Positions 8,043 through 47,855 of a DNA stretch of 64,000 bases are shown here, piece by piece (the first letter of the stretch is position 1; the number at the start of each line of letters is the position of its first letter). The notes beneath the pieces were generated by a model, which saw nothing but the letters and a program-made list of their open reading frames with translations, was not told where the DNA came from and made no database searches. A program made the translations under genes and the position numbers. Origin of the DNA: Tautonia plasticadhaerens (GTDB taxonomy: Bacteria > Planctomycetota > Planctomycetia > Isosphaerales > Isosphaeraceae); contig NZ_CP036426.1 in the NCBI RefSeq assembly GCF_007752535.1, forward strand, positions 5,022,001-5,086,000. Reading direction: 5' to 3'.

Positions 8043-8949
8043 GAAGCCCTGACAAAACCGGGTGAATCACATCACATCCTGGTGGAGGATACGGAAGCAG
8101 ATGACACAGGCCGCCAGGGTCGTCCAGGTGTCCTGGATCACCCCCAGCCGGTCGTACCGCACCCGCATCCGCCGCAGGCCCTTGATCCAGCCGATCGTCC
8201 GCTCCACCACCCAGCGGACCTTGCCCAGCCCGCTGCCGTGCGGTGTCCGACGCTTGGCGATGTGCGGCTCGATGCCCATCCAACGCAGTAACGCCCTCGT
8301 CCCCTCGCTGTCGTAGCCCCGGTCGGCATACAGGTCATCCGGCAACTGCTTCGGCCTGCCCGGTTTGCCGGCGACGCTCGGGAAGTCGAGCACCAGCGGG
8401 ATGATCTGGCGGTGGTCGCTCTCGTTGGCCCCGGCGGTGCGGATCGCCAGCGGCACTCCGGTGCGACTGACCATCACCGTGTGCTTCGTGCCCTTCCTGC
8501 TGCGGTCGACGGGGCTCGGGCCGGTCGCCTCGCCGCCGCCGAAGGCCCGCACCGTCACGCCGTCGACGACCACCGTGTCGGTCTCCAGCTTGCCAGCCTT
8601 GCGGAGCAGCCTCAGCAGGTCGGCATGGAGGCGGTCCCAGATGCCGGCCTCCTCCCAGGCCCGCAGCCGGCGATGGGCGGTGCGACCTGAGCAGCCGAGT
8701 TCCTGCGGGACATCCTCCCAGCGATTGCCGGTGGCCAGGACGAACCAGATGACACGCAGGGCGACCCGGTGCCCGATCGGCGGACGCCCGCCGTAGGGGC
8801 CGATGGCCGGTTCCGGCGGCAGGTGGTGGGCAACCAGATCGAAGAACTCGTCCGGCATGTGGGCGCTCGCCATGGTGGTGTCTCCTTCGGTTCGGAGGAA
8901 AACAGCACCAGGGCGCAAACTCCATGCCACACGGTTTTGTCAGGGCTTC
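8043..8949 (-). mobile_element. IS5-family (IS427-like) insertion sequence
   Basis: The element is 907 bp. The termini are perfect inverted repeats: GAAGCCCTGACAAAACCG at 8043 and its complement ending at 8949. A TA dinucleotide flanks both sides (8041-8042 and 8950-8951), the expected target duplication. It carries one complete transposase gene on the minus strand. Confidence 0.9.
8067..8873 (-). CDS. IS5-family transposase
   Basis: The product is 268 aa from the ATG at 8873, which has a good ribosome-binding site (GAAGGAGAC) 7-12 bases upstream. An N-terminal DUF4096-like region (GGRPPIGHRVALRVIWFVLATGNRWEDVP) precedes the DDE core, with LETDTVVVDGV, LYADRGYDSE and WVVERTIGWIKG supplying likely Asp, Asp and Glu. 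It is a single uninterrupted frame and appears functional. Confidence 0.92.
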   Translation of the reverse strand: MASAHMPDEFFDLVAHHLPPEPAIGPYGGRPPIGHRVALRVIWFVLATGNRWEDVPQELGCSGRTAHRRLRAWEEAGIWDRLHADLLRLLRKAGKLETDTVVVDGVTVRAFGGGEATGPSPVDRSRKGTKHTVMVSRTGVPLAIRTAGANESDHRQIIPLVLDFPSVAGKPGRPKQLPDDLYADRGYDSEGTRALLRWMGIEPHIAKRRTPHGSGLGKVRWVVERTIGWIKGLRRMRVRYDRLGVIQDTWTTLAACVICFRILHQDVM

Positions 8950-8968: not shown

Positions 8969-10189
8969 GTGGTCGTCCGCTATTGAGTTGCCGGGTATAG
9001 TCGGTGCAGTTTGATCCGGGCATCCGCCGTGGTGAACTGCCACCGAATGCCCACCATCCGCTCGTTGCGGTCCTCCTCCCACGCCGCGACCTCCCGCTTC
9101 AGTTCCTCGCTCGACCCGATCCGCCGGTCCAGGCACTGCCTCGCCAGCACCGACAGCTCGATCTCCGCCATGTTCAGCCAACTCCCGTGCTTCGGCGTGT
9201 GGTGGATCTCCAACTTCCCGGCGATCCGACGGGCCCGCTCCGGCGGGAACGCCTCGTACAGCGAGGCGATCTTGTGCGTGTTCAGGTTGTCCATCACCAG
9301 CACGACCTTCTCCGCCTCCTCGTGCACCTCCTCCACCAGCCAACGCACCACCTCGGCGAAGTCCAACGCCGTCCGACGCTCGGTGACGTGGACCGCACGC
9401 CACCCCAGCAGCGGCATCGTCACCATGAACAGGTTGGCCGTCCCGTTGCGGACGTATTCGTGATCGAACCGCTCGAGCCGCCCTGGCGCTGCCGGGATCG
9501 GCACGACCGTCTCGCCGATCAGTTGCTTGCTCGCCTCGTCGAGGCAGACCAGCGGTCGCGTCTCGTCGTAGGGCCGGTGGTAGACCTCCAGCACGTCCTC
9601 CATCGCCGCCACGAACTCGGCGTTCGCCTCCGGCGGGATGCACCACTGCTGCTTCAGATGCGGCCTCAGTTCGCTTTTTTCAAAGAGCGGCGCACCGTCT
9701 CGTCGGAGATCGAGGGGACGATCTCCAACTCGACGAGCTTGTCGGCCAGCAATCGCATCGTCCAGGCCTTGCGGCCGTCGGGGGGCTCCGAGCAGGCCAG
9801 GGCGATCAACTTCGCCTCGGCCCGGCCGTCGAGGGCCCGCTGGCGGCTGGGACGGGCCTGCGTCTTGCGGACCAGGGCGGCCTCCAGGCCCTGCTCGACG
9901 AACCGCTGGCGGACCCGCTCGATGGTGGCGACAGAGACCTCGACGGCCTCGGCGATGCGGTCGTCGGGCCAGGCGGGCCCGCCCTCGGCGGCATCAGCCT
10001 TGAGGAGGATGCGGGCATGGGCCAGTTTCAGAGCGGAGGCCTTGCCGGCGGAGATGAGATCGAGGAGGGCCTGGCGTTCGTCGGCGGTGAGCGTCACGAT
10101 GTACTTCTTCATGTCGATGCTCCTGAAGCGGTTAGGGCTCCAGGAGAACCGATTGCAGCCCATCCCTCAAGTCGTCAGTGGCCGACCAC
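8969..10189 (-). mobile_element. IS630-family insertion sequence, copy 1
   Basis: The element is 1221 bp and has the same length as the copy at 46635-47855, in opposite orientation. TA flanks both ends (8967-8968 and 10190-10191), as expected for IS630. Removing the element and one TA restores CTAG, a preferred target of this family. The ends are related inverted repeats beginning GTGGTCG. It lies 17 bases from the IS5 element. Confidence 0.93.
8980..10112 (-). CDS. IS630 transposase made by -1 frameshifting (orfA plus orfB)
   Basis: The first frame starts at 10112 (ATG after AGGAG) and ends at 9666 after 148 codons. It is a helix-turn-helix part (DDRIAEAVEVSVATIERVRQ). The second frame runs to 8980 and holds the catalytic core: LVCLDEAS, VVLVMDNLNTHK and GSWLNMAEIE carry the DDE residues. 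The frames overlap at an A6 run (TTGAAAAAAGCG). A -1 slip there continues as KKSELRPHLKQQW, so a fused transposase is expected. Both copies are the same at this site, so the shift is probably programmed and not damage. Confidence 0.88.
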
Positions 10190-10456: not shown

Positions 10457-10963
10457 TCAACCCCAGCGGGGGGAGAAACCTTCGACGTGCGCGGCCGACT
10501 CCCGTATCAGGCCTTCCTCGGCAAGTCGCGCCACCATGGCCGCTCGGGAGCAGACACCAAGCTTGGCAAAGATCCGCCGCAGGTGAGTGCCGACGGTCCA
10601 CGAACTAATTTCAAGTACAGCGGCGATGGTCTTATTGGGATATCCCTTGGCCACCATCCGCGCGATCTCGCACTCGCGCGGGCTCAAGACCAACACCGCC
10701 CGCGGGGGTTCGGGCGGGGCCTGCACGAGCAGGCAGCGGACGCCGTTGACTTCGACGTCCAGCAGGACGACCAGCAGTTCGCCGTCGAGGTGGCGCAGGG
10801 TCGCCTCGGGTCGCCGGTCCGCCGATCGGCCGATCAGCTCCTTGACTATCAAGGACACTAGCTCATCGTCGGCGTTGGTCCCCTCGGTCGCCGGGGACGA
10901 TCCGACGCGTCCATCCCGCGACTTCGCACCGACCGGATCGCCTTTGAGTGCCGCGCGGGCCAT
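10457..10963 (-). CDS. LuxR-type (GerE HTH) transcriptional regulator
   Basis: The product is 168 aa. The start ATG at 10963 is preceded by GGGAAGGG. The C-terminal half is a classic LuxR/GerE helix-turn-helix (LSPRECEIARMVAKGYPNK, then ISSWTVGTHLRRIFAKLGV, about residues 93-155). The N-terminal ~90 residues match no receiver or autoinducer domain I recognise; the segment LLVVLLDVEVNGVRCLLVQ may be a small sensor fold. It is transcribed divergently from the E-F-E-G cluster that starts 420 bases away, so it is a candidate regulator of that cluster. This is an inference from position only. Confidence 0.85.
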   Translation of the reverse strand: MARAALKGDPVGAKSRDGRVGSSPATEGTNADDELVSLIVKELIGRSADRRPEATLRHLDGELLVVLLDVEVNGVRCLLVQAPPEPPRAVLVLSPRECEIARMVAKGYPNKTIAAVLEISSWTVGTHLRRIFAKLGVCSRAAMVARLAEEGLIRESAAHVEGFSPRWG

Positions 10964-11383: not shown

Positions 11384-12307
11384 ATGAGGACGCAACGCGA
11401 CGGCGAGCCGGAATGGGAACTCGAAGGGGAATTCGAGGGCGAGTTCGAGGGCGAGTTCGAGGGCGAGCAGTTCCTCGGTACGGCCGCCCGGGGCATCGGC
11501 GGCATGCTCGGACAGGGCGAGGGCGAGTTCGAGGGCGAGTTCGAAAGCGAGTTCGAGGGCGAGTTCGAAGGGGAGTTCGAAGGGGAGTTCGAGGGCGAGT
11601 TCGAGGGCGAGCAGTTCTTCCGACGGATCGCCCGGGGCATCGGCGGCTTCATCCGGCGGGCGGCCCCCGTGCTCCGATCCATGGCCCGGGTCGCGGCGCC
11701 GATCGTCGGGACGGCGGTCGGGGGGCCGCTCGGCGGCATGATCGGCCGCGTCGCCTCTCAGGCGCTGGGTGAGGAGGAATTCGAGTTCGAGGGCGAGTTC
11801 GAGGGCGAGTTCGAGGGCGAGTTCGAGGGCGAGTTCGAGGGCGAGTTCGAGGAAGAAGCGGCGACGGCCTCCGCGCCGAGGACGCTCCAGCAGGCGTCGG
11901 CCGAATACATGGCGGCGGCGGCCTCCCGAGTCCCGACCGAGGCCGAGGCCGAGGCGATGATCGGCGCGGCGACCATCGCGACCCTCTCGCCGGCCGATCG
12001 GGCCGCCCTGCGCCGGGTCCTACCGCACCTGGTTCGCGGCACGGCGATCCTGACGCGGCTGCTCCGCCGCCGCCAGCTCACGCGACCGGCCGTCCGCGTC
12101 GTGCCGACGATCGTCCGCCGCACGGCCACCGTCCTCCGACGCCGCGCCGCTTCCGGCCAGCCGGTCACCCGGCGCACGGCGGCCCGCGCCATGGCATCCC
12201 AGACCCGCCGCGTCCTGGCCAGCCCCCGGACCTGCGCCACCGCCCTGCAGCGCAACGTCACCGCCACCCGGGCCGCGACGCGCCCCGTCCGCCGACGCCC
12301 GAGCTGA
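11384..12307 (+). CDS. E-F-E-G repeat protein 1
   Basis: The product is 307 aa and belongs to no family I recognise. Three blocks of alternating Glu-Phe-Glu-Gly repeats lie at about residues 12-29, 45-77 and 131-158. Between blocks two and three is a Gly/Ala-rich hydrophobic segment (APIVGTAVGGPLGGMIGRVA). The C-terminal ~140 residues are helical and very Arg-rich (LPHLVRGTAILTRLLRRR, PTIVRRTATVLRRRA, QTRRVLASPRTCATALQRN). The protein is therefore strongly acidic in front and basic at the back. It has no signal peptide. Alternating charged and aromatic residues favour beta-sheet self-assembly, so a structural or scaffold role is plausible but inferred. The C-terminal part is shared with the next gene. 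Confidence 0.85.
   Translation: MRTQRDGEPEWELEGEFEGEFEGEFEGEQFLGTAARGIGGMLGQGEGEFEGEFESEFEGEFEGEFEGEFEGEFEGEQFFRRIARGIGGFIRRAAPVLRSMARVAAPIVGTAVGGPLGGMIGRVASQALGEEEFEFEGEFEGEFEGEFEGEFEGEFEEEAATASAPRTLQQASAEYMAAAASRVPTEAEAEAMIGAATIATLSPADRAALRRVLPHLVRGTAILTRLLRRRQLTRPAVRVVPTIVRRTATVLRRRAASGQPVTRRTAARAMASQTRRVLASPRTCATALQRNVTATRAATRPVRRRPS
11429..11852 (+). repeat. 12-bp tandem repeats encoding E-F-E-G
   Basis: Three in-gene arrays (about 11429-11470, 11519-11611 and 11777-11852) are made of the unit GAGTTCGAGGGC with few variants (GAATTC, GAAGGG, GAAAGC). Codon choice is almost uniform, so the arrays have expanded recently or are homogenised. Unit numbers differ between arrays, so length variation between strains is likely. 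Confidence 0.85.
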
Positions 12308-12349
12308 ACCCGCGACCGACCAGCGCCGGGAGGCGAAGGAGGATCGAGC

Positions 12350-13183
12350 ATGTATCGGCCCGCAGCGGAATTCGAGTTCGAGACCGAATGGGAGGCCCTC
12401 CAGGAAGGGGAGGCCGAGTTCGAGTTCGAGGGCTTCGGCGAGTCGGAGACCGAGGAGTTCTTCGGTCGCCTGATGGGCCTGGCCCGCCAGGCGGCGCAGT
12501 CGCCGACCCTGCGGCGGATCGGCCTGACCGCCGCCCGGACGGCCCTGCGCCGGGGATTGCCGGCCGTCGGCGGCTACGTCGGCGGGCTGCTCGGCGACCA
12601 ATCCGCGGGCGCCCGCATCGGGGCCAGCCTGGGCGGCCAGCTCGCCGGCCTGGTCCCCCAGCGGGAGTTCGAGGGCGAGTGGGAATCCGAGGCCCTCCTC
12701 AACCCGGTCCGCCGCGTCTACCCCGACGCCCTGATGGAGCACCTGGGGCACGCGGCCACCGAGGCCGAGTCAAAGGCCGAGGCCGAGGCGTTCCTCGGCG
12801 CCCTGATCCCGCTGGCCGCGCAGCTCATCCCGAGGGTGGCGCCCACGATCATCCGGGCCGCCCCGGGCCTGATCCGCGGCGTGGCCGGCGCCGCCCGGAC
12901 GCTCCGGAGCAATCCGGCGACCCGGCCGCTGGTCCGCGCCCTGCCGACGATCGTCCGCCGGACGACCGCCAGCATCGCCCAGCAGGCCGCGCAGGGCCGG
13001 CCGGTGCCGCCCCGGGCCGCCGTCCGGACGCTGGCGCAGCAGACGGCCCGGGTCCTGTCCAGCCCGTCGCAATGCGCCCAGGCGTATCGGCGATCGCGTG
13101 CCCTGGACCATCGCTATCACCGGGCCACGGGGACGCCCGGCCCCGGCCTGCCCGCGGGCGGCCGCCTGCTCTACCCGCGTTGA
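12350..13183 (+). CDS. E-F-E-G type protein 2 (paralog of the preceding gene)
   Basis: The product is 277 aa with a strong ribosome-binding site (AAGGAGG) before the ATG. The acidic aromatic motif is present but degenerate: EFEFETEWEAL near residue 8, EAEFEFEGFGESETEEFF to about 40, and REFEGEWESEAL near 105. A Gly-rich hydrophobic stretch (GYVGGLLGDQSAG) follows the first block. The C-terminal domain aligns with the previous protein (LPTIVRRTTASIAQQAAQGRPVPPRAA versus VPTIVRRTATVL), including one conserved Cys in SPSQCAQAY. Gene duplication followed by divergence is likely. Both probably work together. No export signal is seen. Confidence 0.82.
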   Translation: MYRPAAEFEFETEWEALQEGEAEFEFEGFGESETEEFFGRLMGLARQAAQSPTLRRIGLTAARTALRRGLPAVGGYVGGLLGDQSAGARIGASLGGQLAGLVPQREFEGEWESEALLNPVRRVYPDALMEHLGHAATEAESKAEAEAFLGALIPLAAQLIPRVAPTIIRAAPGLIRGVAGAARTLRSNPATRPLVRALPTIVRRTTASIAQQAAQGRPVPPRAAVRTLAQQTARVLSSPSQCAQAYRRSRALDHRYHRATGTPGPGLPAGGRLLYPR

Positions 13184-13209
13184 GGGCAGACGGAGGGAGG
13201 GACGTGCCG

Positions 13210-14556
13210 ATGGACATCGAGACCGGTCTCCCCGAGCCGAACGGCAAGGCCAAGCGCACCCCGCGACCGGATCAGCCGACGACCGTTGCGACGGGCCGAG
13301 CCCCCGCGGTGCTCCGCCCCTGGCTACGGGCCCAGGCCGTCAATATCGCCCGGCACACCGCCGCCCTGCGGCCCTTCCGCACCGGCGAATTCGGCACCGC
13401 GCCGTCGGCGCCGTCCGATCCGCACCTGGAGGCCGCCAACGGCCTGATCTCCTCGCTCCGCGCCGGGCTCAAGCGGCTCTCCCGGGGGGTGGCCCAGGCC
13501 GCCAGCGACGCCGGCCGCGACCCGACCCCGGCCCGACTCCGGCGGCTCGTGATCCTCAAGGAGCGGGCCCACGACCGCGTCCGCTCCACCGAACGCATCT
13601 GGGACTTCTACTTCGAGCTGTTCGGCCAGCGGCAGTCGCAATACGGCCCCTGGCTGCTCGGCTGCGACCGGATCGCCCTGGATTGCTACCGCTATTCGTA
13701 CCTGGGCCTCGGCACGGCGCGGTCGATCCCCGCGCCGCCGCCCTTCTCGTACATGAGGACCGGCTTCTCGCCCGCGACCTTCCGCCGCGGCATCCCGCTC
13801 CGGCGCCTGGGCAAGCAGCTCAACCCGTTCCCGCTGGTGCAGCTGCCCTACCACCGGCTCGTCAACCCCTGGACGCTCGGCGCGGTGCTGCACGAGGTCA
13901 GCCACAACCTCCAGAACGACCTGGGCCTGGCCGAGGCCATCCCCCGGGCCCTCGCCCGTCGGCTGATGGACGCCGGCTGCGGGCCGATGGTCGCCGCGAC
14001 CTGGACCCGCTGGAACCGCGAGATCTTCGCCGACCTCGCCGGCCTGCTCCTGGGAGGCCCGGCCGTCGTCGGCTCCCTGCTGGACGTCATCGGCCGGTCG
14101 CCCGCCGCCGTGCTGGGCTTCAACCCCCGGGGGCCGCACCCGACGCCCTACCTCCGGGCCCTGATCAGCACCGAATTGCTCCTCCGGATGGGGTTCGTCG
14201 ACGAGGCCCGCGGCTACCGCCGCGCCTGGATGCGGATCTACCCCAACCCGAGTGCCGGCGGCCTCCCCCGGGCGCTGCTGAGTTCCTTCGCCGAGGTCAA
14301 CGCCCTGGTGGTCGACACAGTCTGCTACCGGCCGTACCCGTCGCTGGGCGGCAAGAGCCTGGCCGCCGTGATCCGCTTCGAGGCGAAGGAGCAGCAAATG
14401 ATCGAGGAGGCCGCCGGGCGGCTGGCGGCCGGCACCGACCCCGGGGTCGTCCCCGAGCGGTTCCTGATCGGCGCGGCCCGCGTGGCGCTCGATCGCCGGC
14501 TGGCTCGGCCAAGCCTGATCACCGAGAACTTCTACAAGGAGCTGACCAGGAGGTGA
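13210..14556 (+). CDS. Putative HExxH zinc metallopeptidase of the E-F-E-G cluster
   Basis: The product is about 448 aa. The start is ATG 13210 after GGAGGGAGGG; an in-frame GTG at 13204 is possible. A zinc-peptidase motif is visible: LHEVSHNLQNDLG gives H228, E229 and H232, and WNREIFADLAGLL 38 residues later offers E271 as a third ligand, a gluzincin-like layout. The N-terminal ~40 residues are polar and probably disordered. The remainder is helical (ANGLISSLRAGLKRLSRG, RVRSTERIWDFYFELFGQ). No signal peptide was found, so it probably acts inside the cell or is delivered with the cluster products. It may process one of the neighbouring proteins; this is inferred from clustering only. Confidence 0.72.
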   Translation: MDIETGLPEPNGKAKRTPRPDQPTTVATGRAPAVLRPWLRAQAVNIARHTAALRPFRTGEFGTAPSAPSDPHLEAANGLISSLRAGLKRLSRGVAQAASDAGRDPTPARLRRLVILKERAHDRVRSTERIWDFYFELFGQRQSQYGPWLLGCDRIALDCYRYSYLGLGTARSIPAPPPFSYMRTGFSPATFRRGIPLRRLGKQLNPFPLVQLPYHRLVNPWTLGAVLHEVSHNLQNDLGLAEAIPRALARRLMDAGCGPMVAATWTRWNREIFADLAGLLLGGPAVVGSLLDVIGRSPAAVLGFNPRGPHPTPYLRALISTELLLRMGFVDEARGYRRAWMRIYPNPSAGGLPRALLSSFAEVNALVVDTVCYRPYPSLGGKSLAAVIRFEAKEQQMIEEAAGRLAAGTDPGVVPERFLIGAARVALDRRLARPSLITENFYKELTRR

Positions 14557-14560
14557 GCCG

Positions 14561-15121
14561 GTGGCGTTGGAATCGGCCTTCCAGGATCTCTGCGAGCGGA
14601 CCCGACGCTGCCTCGACGCCGCACAGGCCCTGCGCCTGACGGTGGTCGAGGACCGCCCCCTCCGGGACGGGGCGCTGCTGGCGGACTGGCTGGGAGACGC
14701 GGCCGAGGGGCTCGTCGGCGACCTGGAGCAGGCGCACGGGGCGGCCGTCGAGGCGTACCGGGCCGCCGCCCTGGCCCGCGACCTGGCCCTCGCCCGGCGG
14801 GCGCTGGCGACCTGCCACGAGCGCACGATCGCCGCCTCCCTCGGCTACTCGGCCGAGCTGGGCTCCTACGACCGCCTCTCCGAGCTAATCCGCCTGGGAC
14901 GGCGCCGCAAGGGGGAGTGGCGGGCCTGGTCCGGCAGCGTCCGCGAGGCGCTCGACGCCTGCCCGCCTCCGCTGGGCGACCTGAATCAGGCGCTCTGCTC
15001 CTGCTGGCAGGAGCTGGCCGAGCGGGCGACCCCGCCCCCCATCACCGTCCACGCCATCGGCATCAGCAGCGGGCCGCCCCGGATCGACGACGAGCCGATC
15101 CTCGGGCGACGCACCCCATGA
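14561..15121 (+). CDS. Uncharacterised 186-aa helical protein of the E-F-E-G cluster
   Basis: It starts at a GTG four bases after the metallopeptidase stop, with AGGAGG just upstream, so translational coupling is likely. The sequence is almost all predicted helix with heptad-like Leu/Ala spacing (FQDLCERTRRCLDAAQALRL, AVEAYRAAALARDLALARRA) and several scattered Cys. The last ~25 residues are Pro-rich. No catalytic motif or known family was recognised. A structural or adaptor role would fit, but nothing in the sequence proves it. Confidence 0.7.
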   Translation: MALESAFQDLCERTRRCLDAAQALRLTVVEDRPLRDGALLADWLGDAAEGLVGDLEQAHGAAVEAYRAAALARDLALARRALATCHERTIAASLGYSAELGSYDRLSELIRLGRRRKGEWRAWSGSVREALDACPPPLGDLNQALCSCWQELAERATPPPITVHAIGISSGPPRIDDEPILGRRTP

Positions 15122-15199
15122 ACCCGCGAGAAGATCGGCAGTTCGATCGGCCCGGCCCGGTCGTCGCACGAGCAGCATCCGCAAGATGAGGGCGGCACC

Positions 15200-18100
15200 A
15201 TGGCGAATCACGACCCGCAGGATCGGCCCGAGGATCGTCCACCCGAGCCGGGCCCGATCGACGACTCCACCCCGACGCTCGAAGGCCAGGCTCCCCAAGA
15301 CCCCACGAACGGAGCCGGCGAGGCCGCCCCGCCATTCGAGGGCAGTGCGGACGACGACGTCCGCGTGCAGCCGATGGAGCACGGCGAGTTCGGGTCCGAG
15401 ACGCAGCCCGGGGAGGAGGTCCCCGACACATCGTTCACCGAGCCGCAGCATGAGTTGATGGCCGGGAGTTTCGGGGATCGGTTGCAGGCCGGATCGCCTC
15501 CGGGGGAGGACCTCGAACACGCAATGCAACCGGACGAGGACGATGTGCCCGGCGGGGTGAATCGCCCGGCCTGGGCGTATTTCGAGGGGTTCGGGACGCA
15601 GGAGGGGGCCGGGGCACTCTCGCCGGGACCGGCGTGGCCTACGTCGGACGAATCCGGCCCGTTCGCCGGAGGACGCGAGGAACTTCAAGCGGACGAGGTC
15701 CGGGAATCGCCCCGTCTGCATCCCGTGCTCCAGGCAGAGGATCTGCGATCATTCTCCTTCGATCAGGAAGTTGACACCTCCGAACAACGACCGTGCGACG
15801 AGGTCGAGCCGATCGCCCGGAAGTCCCGAAAGTCCAGGGGCGCCCCGAGATCGCGACCGACGCGGGACCCCTGCGCCCCCTGCGAGCCGATTTATGGGCC
15901 GCCCGTGACCGTCGACGAGCCGATCGCGGAACGATGCTCGGGGCGGCTCCGGGTGGAGGTGTTCGCCTACCCCGACGCCGAGGGCAAGGGCCCCTTCCTG
16001 CCGCAATATCCGTCCCTGGGCGGCGTCACGGTCGACTTCGTTCAGGTCGACACGGGCGCCTCCGACTCTCAGATGATCGACTTGAACGGCTCCACATGGG
16101 ACCTGATTCAGGGCTGCTACACGGTGTCCGCGCGGCCGACGGCCGGCTACGACCCCCAGAAGACCACCTATTTCGCTTCCGAGGGCAAGGACGACCAACA
16201 AATCCACCCCGGGGAGGCGGTCCTGGTCGCGACGGGTCGGGAGACGCTGGTGCGGATCGGGCTGGTGCCCGAACCCTCGCCCGTCGAGGTCCGCGTCTAT
16301 CTCACCACCGGCCGCGAAGCCAACTCGGAATGCCGATGGCCCATCCACAAGGCCAGGATCGACGTCGATCAGTGCGGGAGGAGGATCGACTGCAACCCCA
16401 CCGATGAGGACGGTCGGGTCCAGTTCTCGCTCAATTCGACCGAAGCGACAATCCTCAAGCTCAAGCAGACGCAACGGATCCAGGGGCGCGTGTACCGCCT
16501 CAGCGGCCCGTCGGAAGTTCGGGTCATGCCGAAGCCGGGGCAGACGTCCTACGTCGAGTTCGCCTACGCCCCGGCGACGGCCAGGATCCGCGTCGATGCG
16601 TTCTACGACCCACCGGCCGGTTCGGGCCAGTCGAAATCCCGCGTCTCCAAGGTAGAGTTCGCCCTGGTCGCCGCCGGGGCCGAGGGCGGGGGGAAGAAGG
16701 GATGGCTCCGGACCGGCACGTCCGGGGGCGGGCCGGTCGTCTTCGATGACCTCGACGAGACCTCCTATACGATCGAGGCCGTCTCCTGGCCCCCGGAGCA
16801 CAAGGGGAGGCCGATCGCCCCCTCCGATCCGGCCGGCAGGCGCCAGACGGTCCTGGCGAGCGTCGACGACTCGGCCGTCGTCGAGTTCCTGTTCGGGCCC
16901 CTCCTCGGCCGCGTACAAGGTGTCGTTCACGGCGACGAGGGTGGCCTGGAAGGCGTCCCGCTCGTCCTCATCGCGGAGGACGGGGCCAGGTTCGATGCCG
17001 TGAGCGGGCCCGACGGCCTTTACGTCTTCGAGGGGGTGCCCCCGGGCCCGGTCGAGGTCGACCCGAGGGACTCGAAACTCGAACTCCGCGATGCCACCTG
17101 GATCCTGGTCGAGCGGGACGAGGCGGCCGAATCGGCCAGCCATTCCGGCAACGGCACCGGGCGGGACGGGTCGGACGGCAGCGGCGGGCACTCGCATCGG
17201 CGAACCCTCCGCGTGGCGGCCTCCCGGACGGCCCACGGCCCGGACTTCCGCTTCAAGCGGGACCTGCCCCGCATCATCGGCGACATCGTTGACGAGCAGG
17301 ACCGCGCGATCCCCTACGCCGAGGTGCTCATCTTCGACCAGTCCGGCCGGAACGAGCTGGATCGGGTCTTCTGCGACGAGCACGGCAAGTTCGTCTGGGT
17401 CGCGCCGCGATCGGGCGACTACCTCGTCACGCCCCGCTTCCGGGGCTCGGGCGAGGTCGCGACCAGGACCCCCGTCAAGGTCCGGTCGGATGCCTTCGTC
17501 CGCCTCAAGGCCCGCTCGTACCGCCCCCCGGGCGACGAACCGCCCCCGGGCCGGGGCCACGGCGAGCTGGCCGGCAACGTCGCCGACATCACCACCTTCC
17601 CGCTCCAGATCGACGGGATCCGCCACGCGGCGATGCCCTCGGGTTCGACGGCATCCTCGGCCGGGGCCCCGATGGCGCCGATGAGCCGGCTGGTCGGCGA
17701 CACGATCCGCCAGGTCCTCGGCTGGCAGCCGCGCCCCGACGACCCGAAGGGCTTCACCGGCGCCCTGAAGCAGTCCTTCACCTGCGTCGAGGAGGACGGG
17801 ACGAGCGTCTGCAAGTGGACCCCGCGGACCTACGCCGTCCACACCGACCTGTCGGGCGGCATCGCCGGCCCGCAGGCCAGCCTGCACATCCGCGCCAAGG
17901 ACGCCCTGGACAAATTCCTGCCGCTGCTCAAGGGCCTCAATCCCCTCCGGCTGAACGCCGACGACGAGGATGTCGAGGCGCTGCGATCGGCCGTCGAGAT
18001 CCAGGCCTCCGCCCTCATCTCCGAGCTCGGCCAGCCGGGAGGCCCGCGCGTCCCCCGCGTCGACCAGATCTTCCGGACCCTGCTCGGCATCGAAGACAGG

Positions 18101-18775
18101 ATCACCGACCCGTCCGAGGTCGGCGGCCTGATGCAGGTCATCCGCGACGAGCTCGGCCTGAAGGACGAGCTGGTCAACACCGTCGAGGAGGAGCGGAACG
18201 TCACGAATTACTTCATCATGGTCGACTACCTGACCGGCTTGCGGCAGAGCTGGACGATCAACCGGTCCTACTTCGACCGCTCGGGCGAGGCACAGCCGTT
18301 CTTCGGCACGCAGCTGGTGCTGCTGTCGCGGTCGCTCTCGGTGGTCGCCGAGTCGGTCGAGGAGCTGCGGTCGACCTTCGACAGCGTCTTCATCGGCCCG
18401 GCCGAGCGGCAGACGCTCGAGATCGCCTTCCCCTCCACCGTCTCGCCGCCCGGCGGCCCGACCGCGGCCGTGATCGGCACCCGCGCGATGATCCTGGAGG
18501 ATCTGCTGCGGTGGGTCGCCGACTTCGCGGCCCACGAGGGGCCGCGGTACATTCAGGACGGCGGCAAGTTCGCCGTCAGGAACGCCTTCCTGCCGATCGT
18601 CGAGACGCTCAGGAACCTGGCCTTCGGCGCCCTCTCCCCGGCGAACGAGCAGGCCCTGCCGCGGGGCTACTCGACCACGCGGGTCAAGCGTGCGATCAAG
18701 GAGCTGGCGCTGCACCTCAACGAGCTGCACCGGCTGGCCGAACCGCTGAACCATACCATCCCGTCGCAGAGCTAG
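15200..18775 (+). CDS. Large multidomain protein with carboxypeptidase-regulatory-like beta domains
   Basis: The product is 1191 aa. Residues 1 to ~220 are acidic, Pro/Gly-rich and probably disordered. A Cys pair (CAPC, near 224) opens the folded part. Several beta-sandwich units follow; two look like carboxypeptidase-regulatory or SdrD-B type folds (GRVQGVVHGDEGGLEGVPLV near 570, and PRIIGDIVDEQDRAIPYAEV near 689). From about 780 onward there is a helical domain of ~400 residues unlike anything I recognise (HIRAKDALDKFLPLLKGLNP, NYFIMVDYLTGLRQSWTINR). No leader or membrane segment is visible. It is by far the largest cluster member and may be the scaffold or binding component. That role is an inference. 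Confidence 0.75.
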   Translation: MANHDPQDRPEDRPPEPGPIDDSTPTLEGQAPQDPTNGAGEAAPPFEGSADDDVRVQPMEHGEFGSETQPGEEVPDTSFTEPQHELMAGSFGDRLQAGSPPGEDLEHAMQPDEDDVPGGVNRPAWAYFEGFGTQEGAGALSPGPAWPTSDESGPFAGGREELQADEVRESPRLHPVLQAEDLRSFSFDQEVDTSEQRPCDEVEPIARKSRKSRGAPRSRPTRDPCAPCEPIYGPPVTVDEPIAERCSGRLRVEVFAYPDAEGKGPFLPQYPSLGGVTVDFVQVDTGASDSQMIDLNGSTWDLIQGCYTVSARPTAGYDPQKTTYFASEGKDDQQIHPGEAVLVATGRETLVRIGLVPEPSPVEVRVYLTTGREANSECRWPIHKARIDVDQCGRRIDCNPTDEDGRVQFSLNSTEATILKLKQTQRIQGRVYRLSGPSEVRVMPKPGQTSYVEFAYAPATARIRVDAFYDPPAGSGQSKSRVSKVEFALVAAGAEGGGKKGWLRTGTSGGGPVVFDDLDETSYTIEAVSWPPEHKGRPIAPSDPAGRRQTVLASVDDSAVVEFLFGPLLGRVQGVVHGDEGGLEGVPLVLIAEDGARFDAVSGPDGLYVFEGVPPGPVEVDPRDSKLELRDATWILVERDEAAESASHSGNGTGRDGSDGSGGHSHRRTLRVAASRTAHGPDFRFKRDLPRIIGDIVDEQDRAIPYAEVLIFDQSGRNELDRVFCDEHGKFVWVAPRSGDYLVTPRFRGSGEVATRTPVKVRSDAFVRLKARSYRPPGDEPPPGRGHGELAGNVADITTFPLQIDGIRHAAMPSGSTASSAGAPMAPMSRLVGDTIRQVLGWQPRPDDPKGFTGALKQSFTCVEEDGTSVCKWTPRTYAVHTDLSGGIAGPQASLHIRAKDALDKFLPLLKGLNPLRLNADDEDVEALRSAVEIQASALISELGQPGGPRVPRVDQIFRTLLGIEDRITDPSEVGGLMQVIRDELGLKDELVNTVEEERNVTNYFIMVDYLTGLRQSWTINRSYFDRSGEAQPFFGTQLVLLSRSLSVVAESVEELRSTFDSVFIGPAERQTLEIAFPSTVSPPGGPTAAVIGTRAMILEDLLRWVADFAAHEGPRYIQDGGKFAVRNAFLPIVETLRNLAFGALSPANEQALPRGYSTTRVKRAIKELALHLNELHRLAEPLNHTIPSQS

Positions 18776-18823
18776 GGGCCCGCACCGACCCCGTGACCTC
18801 CCCGGATGCGAGGAGCCTCAGAG

Positions 18824-19981
18824 ATGGCGACCGAACGCGACTATCAGGATCTCTACGACCGCATCGCGGCGCTGCGGCAGGCGGTGGCGGGCCAGCTCGC
18901 GGGCGACCTCGTGCAGAACCCGGGCCTCGGCGACGCCCTGGTCCAGCAGATCGACGCCATGCTCCGATCGGTCGAGGAGGCCGACGCCAAGGAGCCGCCA
19001 CCGCCGGACAAGGGCCTCGCCCAGCTCGCCGGCATCGGCCCCGATGCGGCCGCCGAGCTCGGCCAGACTCGGCTCCCGCCCGGCGTCAAGGCCTACGACG
19101 AGACCGTCACCTCCGAACGGCTGATCGCCGTCGGCGACCTGTATTATTTGTATCAACATGAGCGGATCGGGGTCTTCCGCGTCGTCCAGAAGCTCAAGGA
19201 ACTCTTCCGCGCCGGCGCCGTCCGGCTCTCGGCGGGGCCCGGGGCCTTCGCGCTGTACCAGTTCGACCGCCGCGAGGTCCTGAGATTCACCCGACGCGAG
19301 CGGCTGGGCGCCTACCGCCGCGTCCTCGGCTACGGCTCGGCCGCGGTCCCCGCCGGGGCGCGGCCCAACGCCGAGTTCCATACGATGTTCAGCCACTTCG
19401 TCAACCAGATCGTCCTCTACTGGCGCGACAAGCGCATCTCGGACGTGATCCGCGAGCGCGCCTACGACCCGAGCTTCGGCAGCGTCTCGATCGTCCGCCG
19501 CGCCGGGCTGGATCTGCGCAACAACCTGAAGTTCACCTCCTACGGCAACCTCAACGTCCTCCGCGTCGAGGTCATGCAGCTGCTCGACGAGGCGTTCCGG
19601 ATCCTCGGCTCCGACGACGTCAAGCGCCTCTTCGGCGCCGACAACGCCTGGGACGTGGTCGAGGAGGTGCTCGTCCGCTACTTCAACGAACGCCTGGTCA
19701 CCTCGCCCCGCCAGCGGATGGCCGTCGCCGGCCGGGAGATCCTCCGCTGGCTCGCCCAGCCGCACATCCTCCAGTCGGCCCGCGCCCAGTTCGAGGCCCT
19801 GCTCCTCCAAGTCGCCGAGTACGCCGAGGAATGGCTCACCAGCGCCCAGGCCCTCGGCCTCGCCCGCCGCGTCACCACCGACCGGGTGGCCCCCTTCGGC
19901 CGCCCGGCATCCGGCGCGGTTCGGACCGTCCCCGATCGGGCGACCCTCCGGGCCGAACGCGAGTTCGAGTTCGAGATGTGA
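18824..19981 (+). CDS. Cluster protein with a C-terminal EFEFE tail
   Basis: The product is about 385 aa from ATG 18824, preceded by GAGGAG; an upstream ATG at 18806 is less well placed. The body is helical (DYQDLYDRIAALRQAV at the start, HTMFSHFVNQIVLYWRDKRI, VVEEVLVRYFNERLV). No enzymatic motif is seen. The striking feature is the last seven residues, REFEFEM, which repeat the acidic-aromatic motif of the first two cluster proteins. This suggests a docking tag or co-assembly signal. It is the best sequence evidence that genes at opposite ends of the cluster are functionally linked. The family is unrecognised. Confidence 0.78.
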   Translation: MATERDYQDLYDRIAALRQAVAGQLAGDLVQNPGLGDALVQQIDAMLRSVEEADAKEPPPPDKGLAQLAGIGPDAAAELGQTRLPPGVKAYDETVTSERLIAVGDLYYLYQHERIGVFRVVQKLKELFRAGAVRLSAGPGAFALYQFDRREVLRFTRRERLGAYRRVLGYGSAAVPAGARPNAEFHTMFSHFVNQIVLYWRDKRISDVIRERAYDPSFGSVSIVRRAGLDLRNNLKFTSYGNLNVLRVEVMQLLDEAFRILGSDDVKRLFGADNAWDVVEEVLVRYFNERLVTSPRQRMAVAGREILRWLAQPHILQSARAQFEALLLQVAEYAEEWLTSAQALGLARRVTTDRVAPFGRPASGAVRTVPDRATLRAEREFEFEM

Positions 19982-20103
19982 GGGGCGACGGGCATCGAAT
20001 CGGCGCCGGGACGGCCCCCGGGACGACGGCCCGATCGAACCCCGCCCGCCCGGGGCTTCCCGACGCGTTCAAGCCTGCTGATGGTTACGGAAGGGGGTGG
20101 GAC

Positions 20104-20502
20104 ATGTCGATCGCCGATCGGAGGCTGGATGCGGAACTCGATCGGCTCCTGGCCCGGGCCGGCGAGGCGTTCATTCGCACGCCGCTCGCGCCGCCCTACC
20201 GGGGACCGCTCCCATTGACCCGGGCGAGCCAGGCCCCCGCCGCGCGAGGGGTGTATCGCATCTACCGCGCCGGGATTCTCGTCTACCAGGGCGAGACGGC
20301 CGATATCCGCCGCCGACTCCTACAGCACCTCCTCTGCCTGACTCACCTGCGGATCACGCCGGCACCTTACACGTTCCGCTACGGGCTGATGCCCCGGAGC
20401 ACGCCCAGGACACGTCGGATCATCGAGCGGAGGGCGATCGAGAACAATCGCCGCCTCCTCCCGCAGCAGCGGGAATGGGAGCTCACCTCGGCGTTCTATT
20501 GA
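20104..20502 (+). CDS. GIY-YIG nuclease-like protein
   Basis: The product is 132 aa; the ATG at 20104 has GGAAGGGGG upstream. A GIY-YIG core is readable: GVYRIY (49-54), LVYQGETADIRRRLLQH (59-75, with Tyr61-Gln-Gly63 for YIG and Arg69-71), and RRIIERRAIENN (104-115) giving a candidate catalytic Glu and Asn. YQG replaces YIG, so activity is not assured. Known relatives cut DNA in repair or mobile-element movement, while some domains only bind. It lies 122 bases after the EFEFE-tail gene on the same strand, at the end of the cluster. A nuclease beside self-assembling proteins could be a cargo, but this is inferred. Confidence 0.72.
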   Translation: MSIADRRLDAELDRLLARAGEAFIRTPLAPPYRGPLPLTRASQAPAARGVYRIYRAGILVYQGETADIRRRLLQHLLCLTHLRITPAPYTFRYGLMPRSTPRTRRIIERRAIENNRRLLPQQREWELTSAFY

Positions 20503-20539: not shown

Positions 20540-21940
20540 ATGGATGACGCCGTGGCCCGTGCCCTGGCCTACGCGAAGGCCGCTCGGCCTGGCTTCGTCG
20601 CCCAGTTGAAGGACTTCGTCCGCATCCCGTCCGTCAGCGCCGATCCCCGCCACGCCGCCGACGTGCGGCGGTGTGCCGACTGGCTGGCCCGGGACCTCCG
20701 CCGGATCGGGATGCCGCGCGTCCGGGTCATCGCCACGCCGCGGAACCCGATCGTCTACGCCGACTGGCTCGGCGCCCCGGGCCGGCCGACCGTCCTGATC
20801 TACGGCCATTACGACGTCCAGCCCGCCGATCCCCCGGACGCCTGGCGGACGCCCCCCTTCGAGCCGACCGTGCGCGGCGACGATCTCTTCGGCCGGGGGG
20901 CGAGCGACGACAAGGGGCCGCTGTTCGCGCACGTCAAGGCCCTGGAGTCCTTCCTCCGCACCCGCGGCACACCGCCGGTCAACATCCGCTGCCTCTTCGA
21001 CGGCGAGGAGGAGATCGGCAGCCCCAACCTCGTCCCCTGGTTGGCGCGGCACCGCCGCGCCCTGGCGTCCGACCTCGCCGTGATCTCCGACACCCGGATG
21101 CTCGGGCCAGACCGGCCGGCGATGACCTATTCGCTGCGCGGCTCGCTCGGCCTGGAGCTGGAAGTCCGCGGGCCGCGTCGCGACCTGCACTCCGGCGCCT
21201 TCGGCGGCGCTGTGCACAACCCGCTCCAGGCCCTCTGCGAGATCCTCGCCCGCCTGCACCACCCCGACGGCCGCGTCGCGGTCCCCGGCTTCTACGACCG
21301 CGTCCGCCCCGTCGGCCCAGACGAGCGGTCCTTCATGGCCCGTCGCGGCCCGAGCGACGCCCGCATCCTCCGCGACGCCGGGGTCGATCGTCCCTGGGGA
21401 GAGCCCGGCTATTCGCTCCACGAGCGGACGACCATCAGGCCCGCGTTGACGATCAACGGCCTGTCCGGCGGCTACCAGGGCCCCGGCGGGAAGGCCGTTA
21501 TTCCGGCCTCGGCCGTCGCCAAGGTCGGCATCCGCCTAGTCCCCGACCAGGACCCGGGCGAAATCTCGCGGCTCGTCCGCCGCCATATCGCTCGCCTGGC
21601 TCCGCCGACAGTCCGGGTCGCCGTCCGAACGCTCCAACGGGCCCGGCCCGTGCACCTCGTCCACCGCCATCCCGGCTTTCAGGCCGCTGCAATCGCCTAT
21701 CGTCGCGGGTTCGGGACTGTGCCTGTGCTCCTCCGCTCCGGGGGGACGATTCCCGTGGTCGATGCGCTCCAGTCCATCCTCTGCACCCCGTGCATTCTGA
21801 TGGGATTCGCGCTGCCCGACGACCGGATGCATGCGCCCGACGAAAAGCTCCATCTCCCCACCTTCGGCCGCGCGATCGCGACCTGTATCCATTTCCTAGC
21901 CGAGGTCCCCGTGTCGCTGTCATATAACGAAATACATTAA
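20540..21940 (+). CDS. M20-family dipeptidase/peptidase
   Basis: The product is 466 aa, typical of M20 dipeptidases. Zinc-site motifs are in order: VLIYGHYDVQP (His and Asp), LFGRGASDDKG, CLFDGEEEIGS (the catalytic Glu pair), VISDTRML (Asp), RDLHSGAFGG (dimer-domain His), and HAPDEKLHLP near the C-terminus. It has no leader, so it is cytoplasmic. It hydrolyses small peptides or related amides. It starts 37 bases after the GIY-YIG gene, so it may be co-transcribed with the E-F-E-G cluster. It could also be an ordinary housekeeping gene. Confidence 0.88.
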   Translation: MDDAVARALAYAKAARPGFVAQLKDFVRIPSVSADPRHAADVRRCADWLARDLRRIGMPRVRVIATPRNPIVYADWLGAPGRPTVLIYGHYDVQPADPPDAWRTPPFEPTVRGDDLFGRGASDDKGPLFAHVKALESFLRTRGTPPVNIRCLFDGEEEIGSPNLVPWLARHRRALASDLAVISDTRMLGPDRPAMTYSLRGSLGLELEVRGPRRDLHSGAFGGAVHNPLQALCEILARLHHPDGRVAVPGFYDRVRPVGPDERSFMARRGPSDARILRDAGVDRPWGEPGYSLHERTTIRPALTINGLSGGYQGPGGKAVIPASAVAKVGIRLVPDQDPGEISRLVRRHIARLAPPTVRVAVRTLQRARPVHLVHRHPGFQAAAIAYRRGFGTVPVLLRSGGTIPVVDALQSILCTPCILMGFALPDDRMHAPDEKLHLPTFGRAIATCIHFLAEVPVSLSYNEIH

Positions 21941-22134: not shown

Positions 22135-23674
22135 GTAGCCGTTCACGGCCCATTGTTGCGTCTGTTGCGTGATGGCGGTAGAACGGCGGCATGAAGGATC
22201 AGCCGCCGATCGACCAACCGCTCTGGGATGGCTTGCCGGCCGAGGCACGGGCGGCCGTCTCGGCATTGGTCGATTCCTACGAGCGGTGGCTCGCCGAGCT
22301 GGAGCAGCGGCTGGGCAGGAACTCCACCAACTCCTCCAGGCCGCCCTCCTCCGATCCCCCGTCACTCAAGCGGCGGCGTCCGCCGGCCCCTCACTCGGGC
22401 AGGAAGCGGGGTGGGCAGCCCGGCCACCGCCGACACGTCCGCCCCCTGGTCCCGCCCGAGCGACTCCGGCAGGTCGTCGAATGCAGGCCGCCGTCCTGCC
22501 GCCGGTGCGGCGACGCCCTCGCCGGCGACGACCCCGAACCGATCCGGCATCAGGTCGCCGAGGTGCCGCCGATCCAGCCCGTGGTCGATGAGTACCGGCT
22601 CCATCGCCTGAAGTGCCCCCGCTGTCGCACCACCACCTGTGCGAAGCTGCCTCCGGGTGTGCCCATCGGGGCGTTCAGGCCACGGTTGCGGGCCGCCCTG
22701 AGCGTCCTGGCGGGGGCCTACCGCCTCGGCAAGCGCCCGATCCGGCAACTCGCCTGCGACCTGCTCGGCCTGTCGATCTCCGCCGGGGTGATCTGCCGCC
22801 TGGAGCGGCAGTGGGCCGCCGAGTTGGAAGCCCCGGTCGAGGGGCTCCGAGAGCATGACCGCGCCGCCGCCTCGGCCCACATCGACGAGACCTCGTGGTG
22901 GCAGGGCCGGGACAAGATGTGGCTGTGGGCGGCCATCACCAAAGGGGCGACGGGCTTCACCATCGCCAAGTCCCGGGGGGCTGCGGTCGCCAAGGCCATG
23001 CTGGGGACCGATCGCCGCAAGGTGGTCATCAGCGATCGGTTCAAGAGCTACGCCTGGGTCAAGCGTCGCCAGTTCTGCTGGGCCCACCTCCGCCGGGATT
23101 TCCAGGCGATGATCGACCGGGGCGGCGAGGCGGGCGAGGTCGGCCGGCGGTTGCTCGACCGCTCCGACGCCCTGTTTCGGTGGTGGCATCGGGTGCGGGA
23201 CGGGACGCTGGCCCGGTCGAGCTTCCGGCTCTATGTCTCGTGGCTGCGGGACTGCCTGCGGGACGACCTGCGTCGGGGGCTGGGGTGCGGCTGCGCTCAG
23301 ACGGCGGCGACGTGCCGGGAGTTGCTGGCCGGCGAGACGCACCTCTGGACGTTCGTGCGAGTCGAGGGGATCGAGCCGACGAACAACCACGCCGAGCGTG
23401 CACTGCGGCACGGGGTGATCTACCGCAAGCTCAGCGGCGGGACCGACAGCGAGTCGGGGAGCCGGTTCGTGGAGCGGATGCTCTCGGTGTTGGCGACCTG
23501 CCGCCAGCAGGGAATGAATGTGCAGGACTACCTCACCCGAGCCTACCGGGCGCATCTCGACGGCGGTACAGTCCCGTCGCTCATCCCGGCTGCCCCACCC
23601 ATTGCGCCGGCCTGACGGGACGACGAGTTGCCGCTCAGCGAGCCAAGGCCGGCATTGGGGGCGTGAACGGCTAC
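22135..23674 (+). mobile_element. IS66-family insertion sequence, lone tnpC type
   Basis: The element is about 1.54 kb. Inverted ends are GTAGCCGTTCACG at 22135 and CGTGAACGGCTAC ending at 23674. No 8-bp target duplication was found (CGTCATGC versus TGTTGGAT). Only the large transposase gene is present; tnpA and tnpB are absent, as in the ISBst12-type subgroup. Confidence 0.85.
22191..23615 (+). CDS. tnpC: IS66-family transposase (TnpC)
   Basis: The product is 474 aa. The N-terminal part has a short coiled region (YERWLAELEQRLGRNSTNSSRPPS) and a basic linker (GRKRGGQPGH). A zinc-finger-like region follows (CRRCGD and CPRCRTTTC, about residues 100-145). The DDE core follows (SAHIDETSWW, VVISDRFKSY, EPTNNHAERALRH). 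It is a complete single frame. Confidence 0.92.
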   Translation: MKDQPPIDQPLWDGLPAEARAAVSALVDSYERWLAELEQRLGRNSTNSSRPPSSDPPSLKRRRPPAPHSGRKRGGQPGHRRHVRPLVPPERLRQVVECRPPSCRRCGDALAGDDPEPIRHQVAEVPPIQPVVDEYRLHRLKCPRCRTTTCAKLPPGVPIGAFRPRLRAALSVLAGAYRLGKRPIRQLACDLLGLSISAGVICRLERQWAAELEAPVEGLREHDRAAASAHIDETSWWQGRDKMWLWAAITKGATGFTIAKSRGAAVAKAMLGTDRRKVVISDRFKSYAWVKRRQFCWAHLRRDFQAMIDRGGEAGEVGRRLLDRSDALFRWWHRVRDGTLARSSFRLYVSWLRDCLRDDLRRGLGCGCAQTAATCRELLAGETHLWTFVRVEGIEPTNNHAERALRHGVIYRKLSGGTDSESGSRFVERMLSVLATCRQQGMNVQDYLTRAYRAHLDGGTVPSLIPAAPPIAPA

Positions 23675-46161: not shown

Positions 46162-46634
46162 GCACCGGTGACGTCCCCCGCCGAAGAGGGGATCGCACGC
46201 GGGACGAGGCCATCCCGGCGGGATCCGACTCGACATCGAGGCCGACGCAATACCCGGAGGAATCGAGATGACACGGTGGTTCGGCCCCCTGGCATTCGTG
46301 CTCGCCGTCGCCCCTCATGCCGTGGCCGATGATCGGGAACCAGGACGCATCCGGCTCTGGCCCGAGGACCCCCGCTACTGGCCTACTCCCTGAAGCGCCC
46401 CAACGTCCTCTACTGCATCGACAACGAGACCAGCGGCGCCGAGGCGTGGTCGACCTACTGGGCCGAGCACATCCGCAGGCGTGCCGAGGAGGCGGGCGTC
46501 GAGGTCTTCATCACCGAGATGTGGGACGACCACGACGTGAAGGGCGGACGGCACTCCCGGACGTTCGACCACCCGGGGCGGTACGACTTCGTCGACGTCT
46601 CCCAGAACAACCACGACTCTGGCCAGGAGCACTA

Positions 46635-47855
46635 GTGGTCGGCCACTGACGACTTGAGGGATGGGCTGCAATCGGTTCTCCTGGAGCCCTAACCGCTTCA
46701 GGAGCATCGACATGAAGAAGTACATCGTGACGCTCACCGCCGACGAACGCCAGGCCCTCCTCGATCTCATCTCCGCCGGCAAGGCCTCCGCTCTGAAACT
46801 GGCCCATGCCCGCATCCTCCTCAAGGCTGATGCCGCCGAGGGCGGGCCCGCCTGGCCCGACGACCGCATCGCCGAGGCCGTCGAGGTCTCTGTCGCCACC
46901 ATCGAGCGGGTCCGCCAGCGGTTCGTCGAGCAGGGCCTGGAGGCCGCCCTGGTCCGCAAGACGCAGGCCCGTCCCAGCCGCCAGCGGGCCCTCGACGGCC
47001 GGGCCGAGGCGAAGTTGATCGCCCTGGCCTGCTCGGAGCCCCCCGACGGCCGCAAGGCCTGGACGATGCGATTGCTGGCCGACAAGCTCGTCGAGTTGGA
47101 GATCGTCCCCTCGATCTCCGACGAGACGGTGCGCCGCTCTTTGAAAAAAGCGAACTGAGGCCGCATCTGAAGCAGCAGTGGTGCATCCCGCCGGAGGCGA
47201 ACGCCGAGTTCGTGGCGGCGATGGAGGACGTGCTGGAGGTCTACCACCGGCCCTACGACGAGACGCGACCGCTGGTCTGCCTCGACGAGGCGAGCAAGCA
47301 ACTGATCGGCGAGACGGTCGTGCCGATCCCGGCAGCGCCAGGGCGGCTCGAGCGGTTCGATCACGAATACGTCCGCAACGGGACGGCCAACCTGTTCATG
47401 GTGACGATGCCGCTGCTGGGGTGGCGTGCGGTCCACGTCACCGAGCGTCGGACGGCGTTGGACTTCGCCGAGGTGGTGCGTTGGCTGGTGGAGGAGGTGC
47501 ACGAGGAGGCGGAGAAGGTCGTGCTGGTGATGGACAACCTGAACACGCACAAGATCGCCTCGCTGTACGAGGCGTTCCCGCCGGAGCGGGCCCGTCGGAT
47601 CGCCGGGAAGTTGGAGATCCACCACACGCCGAAGCACGGGAGTTGGCTGAACATGGCGGAGATCGAGCTGTCGGTGCTGGCGAGGCAGTGCCTGGACCGG
47701 CGGATCGGGTCGAGCGAGGAACTGAAGCGGGAGGTCGCGGCGTGGGAGGAGGACCGCAACGAGCGGATGGTGGGCATTCGGTGGCAGTTCACCACGGCGG
47801 ATGCCCGGATCAAACTGCACCGACTATACCCGGCAACTCAATAGCGGACGACCAC
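46635..47855 (+). mobile_element. IS630-family insertion sequence, copy 2
   Basis: It is 1221 bp, the same length as copy 1 (8969-10189), in the opposite orientation, with identical translated frames. TA flanks both sides (46633-46634 and 47856-47857). Removing it with one TA restores CTAG inside the glycosidase-like pseudogene. Confidence 0.93.
46712..47844 (+). CDS. IS630 transposase made by -1 frameshifting (orfA plus orfB), copy 2
   Basis: OrfA runs 46712-47158 (148 codons), and the overlapping orfB frame ends at 47844. The A6 run near 47144 is the shift site; after a -1 slip the protein continues KKSELRPH. The DDE core is intact (LVCLDEAS, VVLVMDNLN, WLNMAEIE). It is identical in protein to copy 1, so one of the two moved recently. 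Confidence 0.88.

Follow-up and report, generated by a model that had tools for sequence, protein, structure and literature searches.

What kind of system is encoded by a compact block of genes in the planctomycete Tautonia plasticadhaerens, for which neither family libraries nor the literature offers a name? The block lies in a stretch of 64,000 nucleotides (NZ_CP036426.1, positions 5,022,001 to 5,086,000), here called the window. A first-pass annotation of the window had proposed a seven-gene cluster of unrecognised type, and seven open reading frames on the same (+) strand, genes A to G, are indeed found there with intergenic gaps of 4-122 bases. The same genes, in the same order, exist in unrelated bacteria. 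Tentatively, we take the window to hold one copy of a widespread system of charge-masked, membrane-active proteins (A and B) that would be matured by a peptidase (C) and deployed with enzyme cargo.

None of A, B, C, D, and F meets a curated family of Pfam or NCBIfam, and the core proteins have no match in Pfam, NCBIfam, PADLOC, or PHROGs. No description of the repeat in A and B or of the gene set was found in the literature searched. Since no family, defence, or phage library and no paper searched describes it, this is new as a gene system. The first-pass annotation had recognised no named system here, and neither profile libraries nor the fold search place the cluster in one.

Whether the genes belong together can be judged from their co-occurrence. 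A tblastn search of plasmids with C as query identified a locus on a Paraburkholderia megaplasmid (L008; C 65% identical), which has A, B, C, D, the C-terminal part of E, F (74%), an M20 peptidase (57%), and an amidohydrolase in the window's order. A single scan of 84,980 genomes with the C alignment as query added six further close loci (two Terriglobia, Chloroflexaceae, Pseudonocardiaceae, Streptosporangiaceae, and Nocardioides), ordered in the same way where the contig permits, together with distant loci. With the window included, the order A-B-C-D-E-F-M20, often followed by an amidohydrolase gene, is conserved in eight genomes of five phyla; the other seven genomes belong to Acidobacteriota, Chloroflexota, Actinomycetota, and Pseudomonadota. 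Such agreement in genes and order between five phyla is far beyond chance. These loci are called type I.

F is the most conserved component, with 65-73% identity to the window's F in the seven other genomes (global alignment), and C relatives are 58-67% identical in the four other phyla. Orthologs of A are found in L008, L014-L017, and L019 (the L018 contig starts within C), and B orthologs are likewise present in type I loci. D relatives are 28-43% identical (L008, L014, L015, L016, L018, and L019). The C-terminal part of E, of about 400 residues, is kept at 34-43% in L008 and L014-L019, and the beta part of E is optional. The unit is larger than A to G, and an M20 peptidase gene and a LuxR-type regulator belong to it too. 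The M20 gene comes after F in L008, L014, L015, and L017-L019 as well. Of the seven further type I loci, five have a relative of the regulator (55-65% identical), and the remaining two are on short contigs. At 4852-4953 of L008, a PLSDB-listed prediction of a GIM beta-lactamase covers about 100 bases and is probably spurious.

The distribution of type I loci is patchy. Fifty-eight relatives of the window genome lack C, the F tree intermixes phyla, and the Paraburkholderia F is 80% identical to that of a Terriglobia bacterium. Together with the insertion sequences that flank the block, this shows that the whole gene set has spread horizontally.

The scan with C also found 74 distant loci, in which C is 25-31% identical to that of the window. 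These type II loci, the commoner form of the system, occur in Beta-, Gamma-, and Alphaproteobacteria, Bacteroidota, Acidobacteriota, Gemmatimonadota, Nitrospirota, Myxococcota, Actinomycetota, Chloroflexota, Planctomycetota, and Rokubacteria. From one or two acidic/glycine-zipper genes the order runs through C, E2 (about 700 residues), a homolog of BioF/Kbl-like pyridoxal phosphate enzymes that also matches models of autoinducer synthases, and a variable slot to an amidohydrolase, in some loci preceded by M20, and a sigma-54 activator in convergent orientation. Among the 86 loci mapped (distant, plasmid, and type I loci together), and with counts conditional on C as bait, E2 is present in 75, a glycine-zipper gene in 72, the BioF-like gene in 64, the sigma-54 activator in 59, the amidohydrolase in 56, and M20 in 16; the commonest gene order is seen 31 times.

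In a reciprocal test, F was used as bait in 392 genomes of the planctomycete phylum. Five further carriers of F were found, and in all five a C homolog adjoins F and an acidic gene lies upstream. One of these planctomycete loci (L100) has, besides F and C, a BioF-like gene, a LuxR regulator, and a trypsin-like gene, a content that bridges types I and II. Weak matches to B in three planctomycetes, with neither C nor F alongside, were taken as chance.

A and B are paralogs (44% identity). The annotation described both as acidic-aromatic repeat proteins; A has 14 GEFE units and B only three EFE. In every A/B protein of types I and II examined, the head has a net charge of -13 to -59 and the remainder +9 to +46. 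The repeat letters of the head vary among members (EFEG, EYQG, EWEDESEG, EFGQ, and ELEGE), so that E-F-E-G is one local form of a more general head of acidic and aromatic residues. What is constant is an acidic aromatic head, a glycine zipper, and a basic tail, not a strict E-F-E-G repeat. The shared EFE had also been proposed to link the genes at both ends of the cluster; this does not hold, since other members have different repeats and the acidic-aromatic end of F is found in five of eight F proteins. GxxxG stretches exceed those in shuffled sequences in window A (p=0.04), window B (p=0.002), and most type II members tested. A C-terminal tag, GxWxRRGxxI, is present in 39 of 52 type II A/B proteins, the exceptions being mostly cargo fusions. 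A profile of type II A/B proteins matches window B at E=1.2e-6 and window A weakly, and their composition is biased; position, charge plan, and zipper are therefore the main grounds for linking A/B between the two types. No Pfam or NCBIfam family, including known secretion and trafficking domains, was found on type II A/B or E2. In another locus (L102, 5812-7692 of its reverse complement), the N-terminal part of a glycine-zipper protein resembles a permuted papain-fold (YiiX/NlpC-like) peptidase.

C carries the motif HEVSH with a glutamate and an aspartate downstream, and HExxH is kept in all 84 readable homologs of the 86 loci. By this zincin-type signature, an HExxH with a downstream acidic ligand, C is a predicted metallopeptidase; it matched no named peptidase family in Pfam, NCBIfam, or a PDB sequence search. 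C seems to be reused in another cluster type. On plasmids of Bradyrhizobium quebecense (L009) and Sinorhizobium terangae (L010), distant C homologs occur at around 15 kb without A/B or E2, among genes for CHAT, patatin, phospholipase D, S8, and C25 peptidase proteins.

Compared directly by profile, F and E2 show no significant match, and neither does the E C-terminus with either of them. In a database of about 55 sequences, an intermediate planctomycete sequence (L104) matches the window's F at 4e-10 and several E2 proteins at 1.6e-9 to 4e-7, and alignment of E2 with an intermediate profile gives E=7.6e-5 (probability 62%). F and the type II E2 core are thus probably one superfamily, joined via intermediates alone, with E separate. 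Searched against PDB sequences, C, F, and E2 had no credible match; one to F of antifreeze/SAF-like type (E=0.01) was discounted. The AlphaFold model of F built on seven close sequences was poor (predicted local distance difference test, pLDDT, of 40) and was likewise discounted. For the type II E2 core (L031, 47 rows), a good model of pLDDT 84 was obtained. With this model, Foldseek found nothing at E<=0.001 in PDB or BFVD, and the best VIA-align score (Z 4.1, TIPE2) is too weak for naming the fold. In two planctomycete F homologs (L100, 9004-10095, and the F gene of L101), LALTHEVGH aligns with LNVLRVEVM of F, the HExxH motif being absent from type I F. F may be derived from, or converging on, a metallopeptidase.

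Downstream of the BioF-like gene, type II loci have a slot of varying content. Among 60 slot proteins scanned, PG_binding_1 is found in 21, Amidase_2 in five, and trypsin in five; other domains are glucosaminidase, M23, papain, OmpA, and an APOBEC-like deaminase. Slot proteins are often fused to an acidic head and an A/B zipper domain. Slot cassettes differ between loci in which C is 88-97% identical (e.g., M23 and 192-residue genes are present in L060 and absent in L061, and papain is found solely in L026). Deaminase genes of APOBEC/SNAD-like type occur in the slot of Rufibacter and Sabulibacter (L032, 14433-15560; L053, 14452-15546). A GIY-YIG-like domain is found in 33 slot proteins, two of which reach E<0.001 in Pfam GIY-YIG. 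G, placed between F and M20, occupies the equivalent of this slot, and it is the one cargo gene that the window shows. Against Pfam GIY-YIG itself G scores 13.7 bits, under the cut-off of 22.6, while a profile built from the slot GIY-YIG domains with the window excluded matches G at E=5e-9, and the motifs GVY, YQGE, and RRRL and a glutamate of G align with these domains. The earlier guess that G is a nuclease cargo gains support because G lies in a variable slot that recurrently holds GIY-YIG domains; it finds none in the other type I loci, where GIY-YIG is absent at the matching place.

How could these parts work together? A and B would be a tandem charge-masked membrane-active pair, in which the acidic aromatic head neutralises the basic glycine-zipper body. 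C would release or mature them, with the F/E core as an assembly or chaperone factor, and the M20 peptidase and amidohydrolase would trim or recycle the products. The slot enzymes behind F would be carried or let in by A/B, most likely against other bacteria. In the window this cargo would be a GIY-YIG nuclease, and in other loci it comprises proteases, deaminases, and peptidoglycan hydrolases. The gene set and its order, the bipolar charge, HExxH, the variation and fusions in the slot, and the horizontal spread are seen in the sequences themselves, whereas membrane activity, processing by C, the part played by F/E, export, and targets are inferred. That the window is a type I copy of such a system is the explanation we favour, held at somewhat below even confidence. 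A stronger version is doubtful: a new class of bacterial effector system that does without the known secretion machines, with C-matured, charge-masked zipper pairs carrying exchangeable nucleases, wall hydrolases, proteases, or deaminases from cell to cell.

Several findings weigh against this explanation. No export signal or secretion machine is found in the cluster, and the annotation's statement that A to G lack export signals agrees with the hydropathy of the N-termini, none of which is hydrophobic (over the first 35 residues, the 19-residue Kyte-Doolittle value reaches 0.55 at most). A and B are not transmembrane proteins of the classic kind, as their hydropathy peaks at a modest value of about 1.4. 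No recognisable immunity gene was found, there being no conserved small gene beside the cargo in a search that was not exhaustive. The closest type I relatives have no cargo at all between F and M20. Finally, a killing role leaves the enzymes with metabolic relatives (M20, the amidohydrolase, and the BioF-like protein) unexplained.

The absence of export signals would suit a self-assembling scaffold or condensate within the cell, the model of the first-pass annotation. The alternating acidic-aromatic heads would, together with the basic tails, give rise to beta assemblies or coacervates, similar segments would gather the cargo enzymes, and C would process the particle. The opposite charges in the two halves of each A/B protein and the acidic-aromatic segments on cargo and on five of eight F tails agree with it, and FEFE-type peptides are known to form amyloid (PMC5770463). 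This is unlikely, however, as most cargo domains are of peptidoglycan-binding or hydrolase type, with their place of action outside the cytoplasm, and a specific beta lattice is not expected where the repeat letters are unconserved among A/B members. Nor is there a shell-protein match: no HK97-type encapsulin was detected at the sequence level in Pfam, NCBIfam, or PHROGs, A/B and E being compared by sequence only.

Because the metabolic-looking partners are unexplained by killing, peptide maturation stays alive as another reading, which we consider improbable. A/B would be precursors (RiPP-like, i.e., of ribosomally synthesized and post-translationally modified peptides, or signalling), from which C, M20, the amidohydrolase, and the BioF-like protein produce a small signal or a modified peptide, with control by LuxR or sigma-54. 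Conserved peptide- and amide-processing enzymes, the match of the BioF-like protein to autoinducer synthase models, dedicated regulators, and the C-terminal tag of type II A/B all fit. Large cargo enzymes fused to the A/B domain and the F/E core are left unexplained by it, however, and A/B domains are long and repetitive for precursors.

Programmed self-lysis or an abortive response, in which zipper proteins permeabilise the producer's own membrane and hydrolases, nucleases, and proteases destroy the cell once a stress signal gates C, is quite improbable: the holin/endolysin-like mix of membrane-active and wall-degrading parts without signal peptides, the stress-type regulators, and the CHAT, patatin, and phospholipase genes adjoining distant C homologs speak for it, and the lack of a sensor domain in the window cluster, of PADLOC matches, and of viral-contig relatives against it. 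Phage origin, a known anti-phage defence system, and an encapsulin were considered and are unsupported, with no C or F relatives on viral contigs, no match to PADLOC models, and no sequence-level shell match.

If true, the deployment of enzyme cargo by A/B would be a new bacterial way to use enzymes against competitors. Even if this is false, more than 80 loci in at least ten bacterial phyla or classes, with at least three unnamed core families (A/B, C, and F/E2), make up a broad, horizontally spread system with culturable hosts including Janthinobacterium and Nitrosomonas.

The positions of the genes in the window are listed in the table.

Table. Genes of the block and flanking features, in positions of the window
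Feature	Position	Strand	Description
Gene A	11384..12307	+	307 aa (amino acids); acidic E-F-E-G repeat head, glycine-zipper stretch, basic tail
Gene B	12350..13183	+	277 aa; paralog of A
Gene C	13210..14556	+	448 aa; predicted HExxH metallopeptidase, unnamed family
Gene D	14561..15121	+	186 aa; GTG start; confined to type I
Gene E	15200..18775	+	1191 aa; CarboxypepD_reg beta domains (E=1.6e-11) and conserved C-terminal domain
Gene F	18824..19981	+	385 aa; acidic-aromatic tail, C-terminus EREFEFEM
Gene G	20104..20502	+	132 aa; GIY-YIG-like, variable cargo slot
M20 dipeptidase-like gene	20540..21940	+	Pfam Peptidase_M20 1e-24; beyond the cluster as first annotated
LuxR-type (GerE) transcriptional regulator	10457..10963	-	Pfam GerE 2.2e-17; divergent from A
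IS5-like insertion sequence	8067-8930	-	Pfam
IS630-like insertion sequence, two open reading frames	8980-9612 and 9666-10163	-	Pfam
IS66 transposase	22191..23615	+	Pfam DDE_Tnp_IS66 2.4e-28; at the amidohydrolase place of other type I loci

Insertion sequences of IS5-like, IS630-like, and IS66 type lie on either side of the block, which fits the earlier remark that it is intact among broken genes. Only weak amidohydrolase homologs are found elsewhere in the 9.4 Mb genome. Genes near the block carry planctomycete-type PSD/PSCyt domains. The antisense start of the IS630-like reading frame (8980-10163, - strand) recurs at 46375-47820, which suggests a second near-identical IS630 copy in the window.

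Among known systems, extracellular contractile injection systems, including Photorhabdus virulence cassettes, likewise combine a metallopeptidase with toxin-like cargo in a gene cluster; here no sheath, tube, or baseplate is matched in Pfam or PHROGs, and C has no Pfam match. Class IIb two-peptide bacteriocins consist of two GxxxG partners matured from a precursor. A and B would resemble them in the paired GxxxG partners and in precursor maturation (partly PMC5380434), but differ in their acidic repeat heads and large size, and no adjacent export transporter was found.

Polymorphic toxins join a conserved carrier to exchangeable nucleases, deaminases, peptidases, and peptidoglycan hydrolases and have a processing metallopeptidase (PMC3482391). 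Exchangeable domains on a constant carrier are also found in type II relatives with a near-identical chassis. The variable parts here, however, are separate slot genes or zipper-domain fusions, the trafficking routes named in the abstract of PMC3482391 are not recognised, and paired immunity genes were not found in a search that was not exhaustive.

In the Cdz system of Caulobacter, contact-dependent killing is caused by two aggregating glycine-zipper proteins, CdzC and CdzD, of 84-86 residues, which have signals at the N-terminus similar to those of repeats-in-toxin (RTX) proteins; the system further comprises CdzAB for type I secretion and an immunity protein in the membrane (PMC5380434). 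No ATP-binding cassette transporter or periplasmic adaptor of type I secretion is found in the cluster, the flanking genes scanned, or the recurring genes of its relatives, and no small multi-pass gene resembling the Cdz immunity protein was seen in a hydropathy scan limited to A to G. A and B are also larger (277-307 residues) and have acidic heads, and a dedicated peptidase, an F/E core, and cargo enzymes accompany them. Of the systems studied by experiment, Cdz comes closest to the A/B pair: both are tandem pairs of related glycine-zipper proteins that are patchy across bacteria, and for Cdz disruption of the membrane by aggregation has been proposed.

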